Source: Natrinema gari JCM 14663
GTDB lineage: Archaea; Halobacteriota; Halobacteria; Halobacteriales; Natrialbaceae
Assembly: GCF_000337175.1 (NCBI RefSeq)
Contig: NZ_AOIJ01000079.1
Location: 12,188 to 76,187 of the forward strand
Direction: 5' to 3'
Length of the DNA: 64,000 nucleotides
The translations under genes and the position numbers were made by a program. Positions 10,115-15,532 of the stretch are shown piece by piece (within the stretch, counting starts at the first letter, position 1; every line of letters begins with the position of its first letter). The notes beneath the pieces were generated by a model that was given only the letters and a program-made list of their open reading frames with translations, made no database searches and was not told the origin of the DNA.

Positions 10115-11524
10115 CTACTCCGACGCCTCGCCGCGCGCCCGTTCGAAGAGGGCGATGGCTCGGTCCCGACGCTCGGCGTGGTCGACGATCGGTCCCGGAT
10201 AGTCGGGGGCGATCCGCTCGCGCTCGGGCGGCTCGAGGTCGTGCCAGCCGTGGATTTCCTCGGCGGTCGCGTCCGCGAGTTCGGGGACGTACTCGCGGAT
10301 GTACTCGGCGTCGGGATCGTACTCGCGGCCCTGTTTCATCGGGTTGAACACCCGGAAGTACGGCTGGGCGTCGGTCCCGGTTGAGCCCGCCCACTGCCAC
10401 CCCCCGACGTCGTTTGCGGTGTCGTGGTCCGCCAGTTTCTCCCGGAACCAGGCGTACCCCGCGCGCCAGTCGGTCAAGAGGTCCTTCGTCAGGAAGGAGG
10501 CAACGAGCATCCGCACGCGGTTGTGCATCCACCCGTCCGCGCGGAGTTGGCGCATCCCCGCGTCGACGATCGGATACCCCGTCGTGCCGGCTTTCCAGGC
10601 CTCGAGCGCGTCGGGATCGTCGTGCCAGTCGATCTCGTTGTCGTAGCCGCTGAAATCCTCGGTGACCGTGTTCGGATTGAACGCGAGGACGTGGGCGTAG
10701 AACTCCCGCCAGGCGAGTTGACGCTGGAACTCGCGGACGCTCTCGCGGTCCCCGTCGCTCGCGGCTCGTTCGGCGGCCCGCTCGGTGGCGGCGTACAGTT
10801 CCCGTGGCCCGATCGTTCCCCACTTGAGGTGGGGCGAGAGTCGGGAGGTCCCGCTTTCGGCGGGATAGTCGCGCAGCGCGGCGTACTCGTAGATCGGGCC
10901 CGAACAGAAGTCGGCCACCCGCTCCCGGGCCGCCGCCGTCGTCACCGTCGGCGGCGTCGCCTCGGGGTCATCGAAGCCGACCTCGTCAAGCGACGGGATC
11001 GGGTCACCCGAGACGGCCGCGAGGTCGCTCGCCTCGGGTTCGTCGGCCGGTGGTCGCTTGTCGCGGTCGCGCCACTTCTTCCAGAAGTACGAAAAGACCG
11101 AGTAGTGGTCGCCCTGATTCGGCGTAATCGATCCCGGTTCGTGGTGGATCGCATCGTGGACCGACTCGGCCGCGATACCCTCGTCCGTGAGTGCCGTCCG
11201 GACGGCCTGATCGCGTTTCCGGGCGAGTCCGCTGTAGTCCTCGTTCCAGACGACCGTCGCGGCGTCGTGTGCCGTCGCGACCCGGGGCACGGCCGTGCTC
11301 GCCTCGCCTCGCACCACGAGCAAGTCACTCCCGTGTGCTCTGTACCACGACCGAAGGCTCTCGAGGGCCTCGAGCAGACATGCGACCCGGATCGGCGAGG
11401 CGTGTTCGAGGACGGACGGGTCGAGCACGAACAGCGGGACGACCGGCTCGTCGGTCGAGGCGGCGCGTGCGAGTCCGCGATTGTCACCCGGGCGGAGATC
11501 CCGCCGGTGCCAGTGTACGATCAT
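10115..11524 (-). CDS. phr: Deoxyribodipyrimidine photolyase (class I CPD photolyase)
   Basis: A 469-residue flavoprotein that repairs UV-induced cyclobutane pyrimidine dimers with light energy. The N-terminal antenna-binding domain begins MIVHWHRRDLRPGDN. The C-terminal FAD domain has TSRLSPHLKWGTIG, WREFYAHVL, GYPIVDAGMRQL and the Trp-rich NDVGGWQWAGSTGTDA segments conserved in DNA photolyases. Length is normal. Haloarchaea live in bright light and usually carry this gene. A cryptochrome/6-4 enzyme is less likely given the class I FAD-domain motifs. Confidence 0.93.
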   Translation of the reverse strand: MIVHWHRRDLRPGDNRGLARAASTDEPVVPLFVLDPSVLEHASPIRVACLLEALESLRSWYRAHGSDLLVVRGEASTAVPRVATAHDAATVVWNEDYSGLARKRDQAVRTALTDEGIAAESVHDAIHHEPGSITPNQGDHYSVFSYFWKKWRDRDKRPPADEPEASDLAAVSGDPIPSLDEVGFDDPEATPPTVTTAAARERVADFCSGPIYEYAALRDYPAESGTSRLSPHLKWGTIGPRELYAATERAAERAASDGDRESVREFQRQLAWREFYAHVLAFNPNTVTEDFSGYDNEIDWHDDPDALEAWKAGTTGYPIVDAGMRQLRADGWMHNRVRMLVASFLTKDLLTDWRAGYAWFREKLADHDTANDVGGWQWAGSTGTDAQPYFRVFNPMKQGREYDPDAEYIREYVPELADATAEEIHGWHDLEPPERERIAPDYPGPIVDHAERRDRAIALFERARGEASE

Positions 11525-11838: not shown

Positions 11839-12999
11839 ATGAAACTCGCACTCATCGGCTTCGGTCAGGCAGGCGGGAAGGTCGTCGACGAGTTCCTCGC
11901 GTTCGACGACGCGATCGACGGCGGCTTCGTCGAATCGGCGATCGCGATCAACTCGGCGACGACGGACCTCAAAGGCCTCGACCGCGTCTCCGTGGAGAAC
12001 CGAGTCCTCATCGGACAGGCACGCGTGAAAGGCCACGGCGTCGGCGCTGACAACGAACTCGGCGCGGAAATCGCCGAGGCGAACATCGACGAACTACAGG
12101 GCGCGATCGATCGGATTCCGGTCCACGAAATCGATGCGTTCCTCGTCGTCGCGGGCATGGGTGGCGGCACCGGGAGCGGCGGCGCGCCGGTCCTCGCGAA
12201 ACACCTCCAGCGGGTCTACACCCAACCCGTCTACGGGCTGGGTATCCTCCCCGGCACGGACGAGGGTGGCATCTACACGCTCAACGCGGCCCGCTCGTTC
12301 CGGACGTTCGTCGACCAGGTCGACAACCTGCTGGTCTTCGACAACGACGCCTGGCGCAGCGCCGGCGAGTCCGTTGAAGGCGGCTACGACCGCATCAACC
12401 GCGAAATCGTCGAGCGGTTCGGCCTCCTCTTCGCCGCCGGCGAGGTCAGGGAGGGCGATCACGTCGCCGAGAGCGTCGTCGACTCGAGCGAGATCATCAA
12501 CACGCTCTCGAACAGCGGCGTCTCCACGGTCGGCTACGCCAGCGAGACGGTCGAGATCGACGACGGCCTCCTGTCCTCGCTGACCGACGACGACGAGTTC
12601 GACGAAGGAGCGGCGACGAACCGACTGACCAGCCTCGTCCGCAAAGCAACCCTCGGCCGCCTCACGCTCCCCTGCGACGTCGCCAGCGCCGACCGCGGCC
12701 TGGTCGTCGCGAGCGGGCCGCCGAGCTACCTCAATCGCAAGGGCGTCGAACGCGGCCGCCAGTGGCTCGAGGACGAGACCGGCAGCATGGAGATCCGCGG
12801 CGGGGATTACCCGATCACGGTTCGGGATGAGGTGGGGACGGTCGTCCTGCTGTCGGGCGTGACCGACGTGCCCCGGATCGACCAACTGCAAGAGGTCGCG
12901 ATCGAGGCGCAGGAGACGACCGCGGACGTGCAGGCGACCGCCGACGAGGACTTCGCGTCGCTGATGGACACCGGCGATGAACTCGACGCGCTGTTTTAA
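11839..12999 (+). CDS. cetZ: CetZ, tubulin/FtsZ-family cytoskeletal GTPase
   Basis: A 386-residue protein with the tubulin-superfamily GTP-binding loops: T1 GFGQAGGK (7-14) and the T4 signature GGGTGSG (108-114). The C-terminal half is the tubulin/FtsZ 2-layer sandwich followed by a short acidic tail ending DALF. CetZ proteins are haloarchaeal tubulin-like polymers; in Haloferax CetZ1 controls rod shape and motility, while cell division relies on FtsZ1/2. The absence of an FtsZ-like long N-terminal extension and the overall length favour CetZ. Which CetZ paralogue this is cannot be settled from the window. It stands alone with its own promoter. Confidence 0.93.
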   Translation: MKLALIGFGQAGGKVVDEFLAFDDAIDGGFVESAIAINSATTDLKGLDRVSVENRVLIGQARVKGHGVGADNELGAEIAEANIDELQGAIDRIPVHEIDAFLVVAGMGGGTGSGGAPVLAKHLQRVYTQPVYGLGILPGTDEGGIYTLNAARSFRTFVDQVDNLLVFDNDAWRSAGESVEGGYDRINREIVERFGLLFAAGEVREGDHVAESVVDSSEIINTLSNSGVSTVGYASETVEIDDGLLSSLTDDDEFDEGAATNRLTSLVRKATLGRLTLPCDVASADRGLVVASGPPSYLNRKGVERGRQWLEDETGSMEIRGGDYPITVRDEVGTVVLLSGVTDVPRIDQLQEVAIEAQETTADVQATADEDFASLMDTGDELDALF

Positions 13000-13376: not shown

Positions 13377-14078
13377 TTACGGGATCGGAAGCGCGGTCGT
13401 CTCGATGGCGTCCCGGCGGCCGTCGAGCACCGCGAATCGCTCGTCACGGCGCGCCTCGAGCCAGAAGAGGAGGCGCTCGGCCCACTCGAGTTTGCGCGCT
13501 TTCGGTGGGTCGACCGCGGGATCGTCGAAGTCCCAGCCGACGAAGACGAGTCGAGCGGCTCCGGCGTGATCGGCGAGAAACGCGGCCCGATCGCCGTCGG
13601 TAAAGCCGCCGAAGTTCCGGACCGGGCCCTGCGGTGCGGCCTGTGTCGTCGGCAGAACGTAGTCGTGGTCACAGTTCGGAACGACCGTCCGGATCGAATC
13701 GAGATTGTCGCCGTGACCGTGAACCGCGACCGGGACGCCCCGCGCGGTGAGTCGCTCGACGGTCGCCGGATTCTTGTCGAGATCCGTCACCATGCAGTCG
13801 GTGGCAATACCGTGGCTCGCGAGCGTTTCGACGGCCGTCGACGCGGCGACGACGACATCGGCCTCGCGTGCTCGCTTGAGGGCCCGGTTGGTCTCGAGGG
13901 ACGGCCCTGCTCCCGCCACGGCGACGGTCGTTTCGGGGCCGATCGGCAAGTCGGCGGGGTCGAACGACGCCTCGAGAAGGGACGCGAGGCGATCGCGCCC
14001 TCGCTCATCGCCGGCGCGATCGTAGCCGAAATCGCGGCAGATCGCCTCGTAGACTGGTTCCCAATCGTCGAACTCCAT
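13377..14078 (-). CDS. mptE: 6-hydroxymethyl-7,8-dihydropterin pyrophosphokinase (MptE, DUF115)
   Basis: A 233-residue protein of the DUF115/MptE family, the archaeal enzyme that transfers pyrophosphate to 6-hydroxymethyl-dihydropterin, replacing bacterial FolK. Supporting segments are VAVAGAGPSLE (about 48-58), DCMVTDLDKNP, VHGHGDN and FVGWDFDD. The start MEFDDWEP is conserved-looking; longer frames run through the hairpin-rich leader. Its product feeds dihydropteroate synthase, and folP lies upstream on the same strand, so the two genes form a pterin/folate unit. Confidence 0.9.
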   Translation of the reverse strand: MEFDDWEPVYEAICRDFGYDRAGDERGRDRLASLLEASFDPADLPIGPETTVAVAGAGPSLETNRALKRAREADVVVAASTAVETLASHGIATDCMVTDLDKNPATVERLTARGVPVAVHGHGDNLDSIRTVVPNCDHDYVLPTTQAAPQGPVRNFGGFTDGDRAAFLADHAGAARLVFVGWDFDDPAVDPPKARKLEWAERLLFWLEARRDERFAVLDGRRDAIETTALPIP

Positions 14079-14184
14079 GTGACCGTTTTCGACGCTCGAC
14101 CCGTTTGTGTGTTCGGTCTCGGGAGGCCGAGAGCAGGTTCCGATAGCAGCAACGATCACCGAGGCCAAAGTGACAAATAACTGC

Positions 14185-14330
14185 CAACACTCCGTAGCTG
14201 GACCCAGTTCGCACTGGGCAATGTAGCAGCGCAATAATTCCGTGTTATGGGCCGGGGGTCGCCTCCAAAGTACCCCTACCCGGGAGGCTGCCCCGGCGTC
14301 CACTCCCTCCTTTCGAAGCATACGTCATAA
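14185..14330 (-). ncRNA. Candidate structured RNA or leader element between folP and mptE
   Basis: On the minus strand two strong hairpins can be drawn in the 260-bp gap before mptE. The larger has a 7-bp stem (14251-14257 with 14291-14297), a small internal loop, and a 6-bp stem (14261-14266 with 14283-14288). The smaller is a perfect 6-bp stem (14203-14208 with 14213-14218) closed by gcga, a GNRA tetraloop. The reading frame across this stretch has no conserved protein features. It may be an mptE 5' leader with a regulatory fold, or an independent sRNA. It matches no RNA family I recognise. Confidence 0.4.
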
Positions 14331-14338
14331 GCTTTCTC

Positions 14339-15532
14339 TTAACGCAGCAGCCTTGACAGCTTCTCTCCGAGGGCCGCGATGTCGTCGCTTTTTGTGGCGA
14401 GACGACCTGAAACATCGGAAACTGCCGTCGTCGATCCCATAAGAAGGAGCGCGCCGTCGTCCGACGGCTGGACGACCGCACCGTGTTCCGCTGCGATCGC
14501 CGTCAGCCGCTCGCTCGCGTCGTCGTCGAGGCCCTCGATCTCGAGCAGTTGGGTCCCCCAGTCGTCCGCGAACGCGGGATCGATCCCGCGCTCTCTGAGC
14601 TGGGTCCGAAACGCGCGGGTCGAGTCCACGTCCAGTTGCGAGATGGAGACCCCGTCGACACTGGCGCTTGCACGCTCGGTAAACGCCTTCCCGATCAGCG
14701 CCGCGTCCCGCGTTTCGGCCACGTCGTGGGTCCGGATCACGTGTGCGCCGCGCTCGACGGCCATCGAAGTCGCCGCCAGGCTCACCGGTAACCGCTCGTC
14801 GGTCGTGCGGTCCGCGAGCTCGCCGAGGAAGTTCTTCCGATTGATCGAGACCAGCATCGGCCGGTCGAGCGCACGGAACTCGCGGAGCCGGCGGAAGACA
14901 GCGCGGTCGTCGGCGAGCGTCTGAGCCTCGCTCCACCCGCCGAACGCGGGATCGATGATCGTCTTGTCGGTCAGTCCGTTCTGTTTCAGCGCCTCGTATA
15001 CTTGCTCGACGTAGTCGGCGTCGGCCGCCCAGTCCGGGGACTTCCGTGCTGCCCAGTCGGTCTCCTCGACGGCACCCGGCCGCTCGAGGTCGGGCGGACT
15101 CGCCATCTTGGCGACGGCGGCGTCGTAGTCCGCACAGACGGTCGGCATCTCGGGATCGGCGAACCCACAGATGTCGTTGACCATATCGAACCCCTGCGAA
15201 AGGGCCTCGTCGGCCACCTCGGCGTACCGCGTCTCGATCGAGAAGATCGCGTCCCCGGACACGCTCTCGATCGTCTCGAGGGCGACGGACAGCCGCTCGA
15301 GTTCCTCCTCGGCCGAGAGCACGTCGAAGCGCTTGTTCGCCGACTCGAGGCCGATATCGACGATGTCGGCCCCCTCGTCGATCAGTTCCTCGTCGACGTA
15401 ACGGGCCGCCTGTCCGGGGTCGTCGAAGACGCTCGGATCGTACGGCGATTCCTCGCTGACGTTCAACACGCCCATGATTCGGGGCGGATACTCGTCACCG
15501 ATCCCGAGGCCGGCGGCGTCGACGCTGTCCAT
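14339..15532 (-). CDS. folP: Dihydropteroate synthase (haloarchaeal type)
   Basis: A 397-residue protein. The first 275 residues form the pterin-binding TIM barrel: MGVLNVSEESPYD (about 20-32), GADIVDIGLES, DMVNDICG, IDPAFGG, SINRKNFL and VIRTHDVAETRDA. The two substrate loops differ from bacterial NVTPDSFSDGG and GGESTRPG but keep their positions, which I believe is usual in haloarchaea. About 120 extra C-terminal residues form a separate small domain of unknown role. The enzyme joins the pterin pyrophosphate made by MptE to p-aminobenzoate. The start is the ATG at 15532; the longer upstream frame is Arg-rich and non-conserved. Confidence 0.92.
   Translation of the reverse strand: MDSVDAAGLGIGDEYPPRIMGVLNVSEESPYDPSVFDDPGQAARYVDEELIDEGADIVDIGLESANKRFDVLSAEEELERLSVALETIESVSGDAIFSIETRYAEVADEALSQGFDMVNDICGFADPEMPTVCADYDAAVAKMASPPDLERPGAVEETDWAARKSPDWAADADYVEQVYEALKQNGLTDKTIIDPAFGGWSEAQTLADDRAVFRRLREFRALDRPMLVSINRKNFLGELADRTTDERLPVSLAATSMAVERGAHVIRTHDVAETRDAALIGKAFTERASASVDGVSISQLDVDSTRAFRTQLRERGIDPAFADDWGTQLLEIEGLDDDASERLTAIAAEHGAVVQPSDDGALLLMGSTTAVSDVSGRLATKSDDIAALGEKLSRLLR

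Follow-up and report, generated by a model that had tools for sequence, protein, structure and literature searches.

A conserved, covarying RNA hairpin 5′ of the pterin gene mptE in Halobacteriales

We find that the 260 nt between folP and mptE in Natrinema gari JCM 14663 hold a conserved hairpin, supported by covariation and preceded by a promoter at constant spacing, that is linked to mptE and, where it is missing, has mostly been lost together with the separate promoter region of that gene. Judging from sequence comparison, the hairpin probably forms the start of the mptE mRNA, and it may control the gene. The hairpin represents a new RNA family within a known kind of element, the structured leader RNA. 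The reading that we prefer, at a probability of about one half, is that it acts in cis in the 5′ leader of mptE, with a partner recognizing its apex.

Results

A bipartite hairpin with a near-invariant apex

The features discussed below (Table 1) lie in the window, by which we mean the whole 64,000-nucleotide stretch of DNA that was analysed. An initial annotation had described two minus-strand hairpins between folP and mptE as a possible pterin-responsive RNA; both hairpins are present in the sequence, and Pfam and NCBIfam uphold the identities it had given to the flanking genes. A CetZ-type tubulin gene (PF21011; window 11839–12999, plus strand) adjoins this folate cluster, and a photolyase/cryptochrome-like frame, recognized by eye, lies beside it (window 10115–11524, minus strand).

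Table 1. Features in and around the folP–mptE interval (positions in the window).
Feature	Position	Strand	Description
mptE (6-hydroxymethyl-7,8-dihydropterin pyrophosphokinase, 233 aa)	13377..14078	-	PF01973 MptE-like, E 4.1e-19; start at 14078
GNRA hairpin CCCAGU-GCGA-ACUGGG	14203..14218	-	6-bp stem without covariation support; overlaps the sequence-conserved CAGYGACRRC element
TATA-like GAATTATTG, possible second promoter for mptE	14232..14240	-	3′ of the hairpin; conserved in the family
Conserved hairpin (UGG...CCA), 55 nt	14248..14302	-	P1 with 2-nt bulge (AC), P2, apical stem; CM R2 and covariation
Near-invariant apical element GGGUAGGGGUAC	14270..14281	-	GUA-GGGG-UAC tetraloop stem
Core promoter A, taagagaaagcttatg (BRE and TATA box)	14326..14341	-	Overlaps the folP stop codon; nearly invariant in 63 distinct loci
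folP (dihydropteroate synthase)	14339..15532	-	PF00809, E 1e-41; TIGR01496 above cut-off; stop 14341–14339

The stem of the conserved hairpin is bipartite in the window, with 7 bp belonging to P1 (GCCGGGG/CCCCGGC, 14297–14291 with 14257–14251) and a second part of 6 bp (GCCUCC/GGAGGC, 14288–14283 with 14266–14261). Across the aligned loci these stems vary in sequence and length beneath an apical element that scarcely varies at all. In A2, a sequence-only alignment of 63 distinct hairpins, the apex is the same in all 63 rows, an invariance that is partly a selection effect because the rows were gathered in part through the apex motif and many of the 63 were located that way; among loci picked by the CM alone it is retained in 29 of 30. 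The sole exception (L108, GGGCAGGGGUGU) has GCA-GGGG-UGU at this place, in agreement with the pairing. As a whole, the 260 nt have an ordinary folding energy (z −0.84), and the case for the hairpin therefore rests on comparative evidence.

This comparative evidence supports both P1 (UGG/CCA, the 2-nt bulge and GCCG../..CGGC) and P2. Compensatory changes, on both sides of the helix, are seen in 11 of the 15 varying pairs of A2, a value that none of 500 shuffles reached, and 89.9% of the cells are paired, against 81.8% in shuffles and 32–49% in slid controls. The check for covariation in relatives that the initial annotation had proposed thus comes out in favor of its fold, for the bipartite hairpin only. 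Its GNRA hairpin does not hold up as a conserved helix: the outer pairs are no better than shuffled, only the innermost pair covaries, and the GCGA loop is confined to the window and its two closest relatives. This hairpin does not belong to the conserved structure. The CAGYGACRRC element that it overlaps is found near the mptE start codon in many haloarchaea, 15–35 nt after the hairpin, perhaps as a start-site region or translation element.

A further reading of the interval, as a conserved protein extension at the N terminus of MptE, is ruled out for most relatives: 73 of 95 loci have an in-frame stop after the hairpin and before the start codon, and single-nucleotide indels occur within the hairpin. 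A conserved structured RNA 5′ of mptE, order-wide and covarying, is strongly supported.

Distribution and linkage to mptE

Among Halobacteriales the hairpin was detected with CM R2 in 327 of the 394 genomes, including 305 of the 347 good ones, spanning 75 of 95 genera and nearly always in single copy; named carriers include species of Haloferax, Halobellus, Halogeometricum and Halorubrum. All 73 matches in a phylum-wide sample fall in Halobacteriales, with none in the sampled genomes outside this order. Plasmids gave no matches, and motif matches in viral contigs are at chance level only.

Wherever an mptE-type locus has enough contig, the hairpin is followed by mptE on the same strand. In seven mptE-type loci the available upstream sequence did not reveal folP, a count that is soft because two of the seven (L058, L096) are short. 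Genomes without the hairpin are informative as to its role: in most of them mptE abuts, or is fused to, folP or another gene and has no intergenic promoter, and these genomes contain no convincing relocated copy of the hairpin, just weak matches at chance level. Loss of the hairpin together with the separate promoter region of mptE favors a function tied to mptE. One hairpin-less genome (G045, locus L124) apparently has the gene's own promoter, and another genome carries an extra copy resembling the mptE-type element (L197, G284:C2:629672–629726; same promoter and P1) apart from its mptE-type locus.

Promoter geometry and the start of the mptE message

When the 260 nt were compared by BLAST with 61 related genomes, the alignments covered chiefly the first 70–140 nt and not the remainder. 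Across the aligned loci the conserved promoter reads taagagaaagcttat, followed by a gap of 25–28 nt and then by the bipartite hairpin; the distance from TATA box to hairpin falls within this range in 62 of 63 distinct loci (about 26 nt in the window), and promoter A is kept even where the sequence preceding it is unrelated. From this fixed spacing we infer that promoter A directs transcription from the base of the hairpin, in which case the mptE mRNA would begin with the hairpin. A trans-acting partner, either a protein or a small pterin/folate-pathway metabolite, would then recognize the near-invariant GGGUAGGGGUAC apex, and this recognition would tune the translation or stability of the mptE message. 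The start site, the regulation and the nature of the partner are the parts of the leader reading that we infer.

The strongest competing reading is an RNA that acts independently in trans, encoded by a stand-alone small RNA gene in which promoter A makes an RNA of roughly 60–80 nt and mptE uses a downstream promoter of its own. Both the constant spacing of promoter A and the TATA-like box that follows the hairpin are consistent with such a gene. This second site is present right after the hairpin in many lineages, and where leaders are short it peaks 26–32 nt before the mptE ATG in about half of the lineages (11 of 18 at −30), a spacing that suggests a leaderless mptE transcript initiated from a second promoter. 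Several lineages nevertheless lack it. In L111, L106 and the Halobellus loci L133, L140, L144 and L145 the end of the hairpin is 13–30 nt from the mptE start with no TATA box between, and promoter A must therefore give a hairpin-led mptE mRNA in these cases, unless folP reads through. The stand-alone gene is further opposed by the linkage to mptE at all mptE-type loci, by the failure of the hairpin to relocate in genomes that have lost it, and by the lack of a U-rich terminator directly 3′ of the mptE-type hairpin; we regard it as somewhat unlikely.

Leadered and leaderless mptE transcripts may both exist; in H. volcanii, genes with two starts that yield both forms have been documented (PMC4983044). 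In Haloferax, leaderless messages make up 72% of mRNAs, and control through structured leaders has been called not typical (PMC4983044). Despite its mostly leaderless mRNAs Haloferax retains the hairpin in the sampled species, and a leader RNA that is conserved across the order, covaries and has a near-invariant loop would contradict that description when it is taken as a rule. The hairpin offers a concrete, genetically tractable Haloferax test case of whether RNA elements control archaeal folate synthesis.

Relation to known RNA families

Searches of Rfam with the window and five diverse loci returned no relevant family at either gathering or permissive thresholds, and the element is absent from the openly accessible main texts searched on the motif sequence, on mptE riboswitches and on lists of archaeal structured RNAs. 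The suggestion that a conserved fold at this place would be new is borne out to that extent. Folate-pathway sensing within 5′ leaders is known from the THF-I and ZTP (pfl) riboswitches, and the mptE hairpin is likewise a candidate leader of a folate gene; those RNAs are, however, junction or pseudoknot folds, and the hairpin matches none of the Rfam families even permissively. The fluoride (crcB) riboswitch, which has been called the sole natural riboswitch of archaea to be determined experimentally (PMC8241225), is similarly a structured archaeal leader RNA but is unrelated in sequence, structure and gene.

Conserved RNA hairpins of haloarchaea also include HP1 and HP2, box H/ACA guides with targets in 23S rRNA (PMC2584109), and a guide RNA of this type would account for an ACA that some of the sequences have after the stem, the haloarchaeal H/ACA hairpins being separated by a spacer (PMC2584109). 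In the mptE family the ACA is not conserved (only 35 of 63 sequences have it 8 nt or less from the stem), and inspection of folded representatives showed no K-turn and only small internal loops, none of a size to hold a guide pocket. We have rejected this assignment as highly improbable.

Free-standing RNAs with the same apex

A second R2 match occurs in about 16 genomes. Many of these matches are the same apex carried on unrelated stems, behind a promoter composed of CACAAGA and then a TATA box, often with a U-rich end and without mptE; one second match, in G284, is instead the extra mptE-type-like copy at L197. A pattern search that included the CACAAGA promoter identified free-standing RNAs of this kind in 28 of the 394 genomes, which belong to 10 genera, and gave none in the control; the carriers include two genomes of the window's own genus (G026, G007) and one (G176) that has no mptE-type copy by R2. 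Use of the same apex on free-standing RNAs marks it as a module able to function apart from mptE and thereby favors a partner acting in trans. As paralogues under another promoter, in one genome without the mptE-type copy, these RNAs also speak for the stand-alone gene considered above, and they make a protein partner or a role in trans as plausible as pterin sensing. The probabilities that we attach to the alternatives overlap, in that a protein site and a riboswitch are two forms of the partner invoked by the leader reading.

If the partner is an RNA-binding protein, the hairpin would be its site and the free-standing RNAs would be decoys or further targets, by analogy with Csr/Rsm logic. 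A near-invariant apex on stems that differ in sequence and length would be expected of such a site, as would its recurrence on free-standing hairpins with U-rich ends; no candidate protein was identified, however, and the putative decoys occur in only a minority of genomes (28/394). We consider a protein site unlikely.

The pterin-responsive RNA of the initial annotation would correspond to a pterin/folate-binding riboswitch in which apex and bulge serve as the aptamer and ligand binding represses mptE. The association with a single pterin-pathway gene agrees with this proposal, and a possible precedent exists in the THF-II (folE motif) riboswitch, which demonstrates that a simple hairpin-like RNA 5′ of one folate gene, here folE, can be a genuine riboswitch (PMC6800512). 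All THF-II representatives come from Rhizobiales or metagenomes (PMC6800512), and the two elements are alike in being small, simple hairpin-based RNAs of restricted clades that precede one folate-pathway gene. They differ in gene, domain and architecture and share no sequence or Rfam match, and ligand binding by the mptE hairpin is putative. Neither the leader alignments nor one Haloferax leader fold reveals an apparent expression platform, and the leaders yielded neither a conserved switching partner nor a sequestered start site. This result, like the distance from hairpin to start, which ranges from 13 to about 320 nt, also weighs against the leader reading, as do the free-standing RNAs that occur without mptE. 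The hairpin also lacks the junction or pseudoknot typical of aptamers, its apex is found on RNAs that do not adjoin folate genes, and the Rfam THF, THF-II and ZTP families show no similarity to it. A further class of folate riboswitch, which would be the first natural one of haloarchaea and would have an aptamer apex that spread onto free-standing small RNAs, is in our judgment improbable.

For a leader element with a recognized apex, the loop common to the free-standing RNAs makes a shared binding partner testable by pull-down. The loop was also considered as an antisense sequence: in the genome of the window its complement has two exact 12-mer matches, namely the locus itself and one unrelated place, and the totals of antisense targets are close to those of a reversed-pattern control, with none in rRNA. 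At the unrelated place (L040, G000:C36:14310–14321) the antisense strand reads GTACCCCTACCCATGG, the loop complement standing right before a possible ATG, a position that is likely due to chance.

Seven loci, each with the motif near position 1500 in its oriented sequence (L236, L225, L226, L227, L223, L211 and L234), are free-standing small RNA genes behind the CACAAGA-TATA promoter whose hairpins have the GGGUAGGGGUAC apex; they are spread across at least four families of haloarchaea. Inspection of flanking frames revealed no common neighbor gene of the free-standing RNAs, their neighbors being different from one another. In genus g83 (L224, L225) the free-standing RNA lies upstream of, and on the same strand as, a frame that by eye only resembles 3-dehydroquinate synthase II, an enzyme of the shikimate pathway, which leads to p-aminobenzoate.
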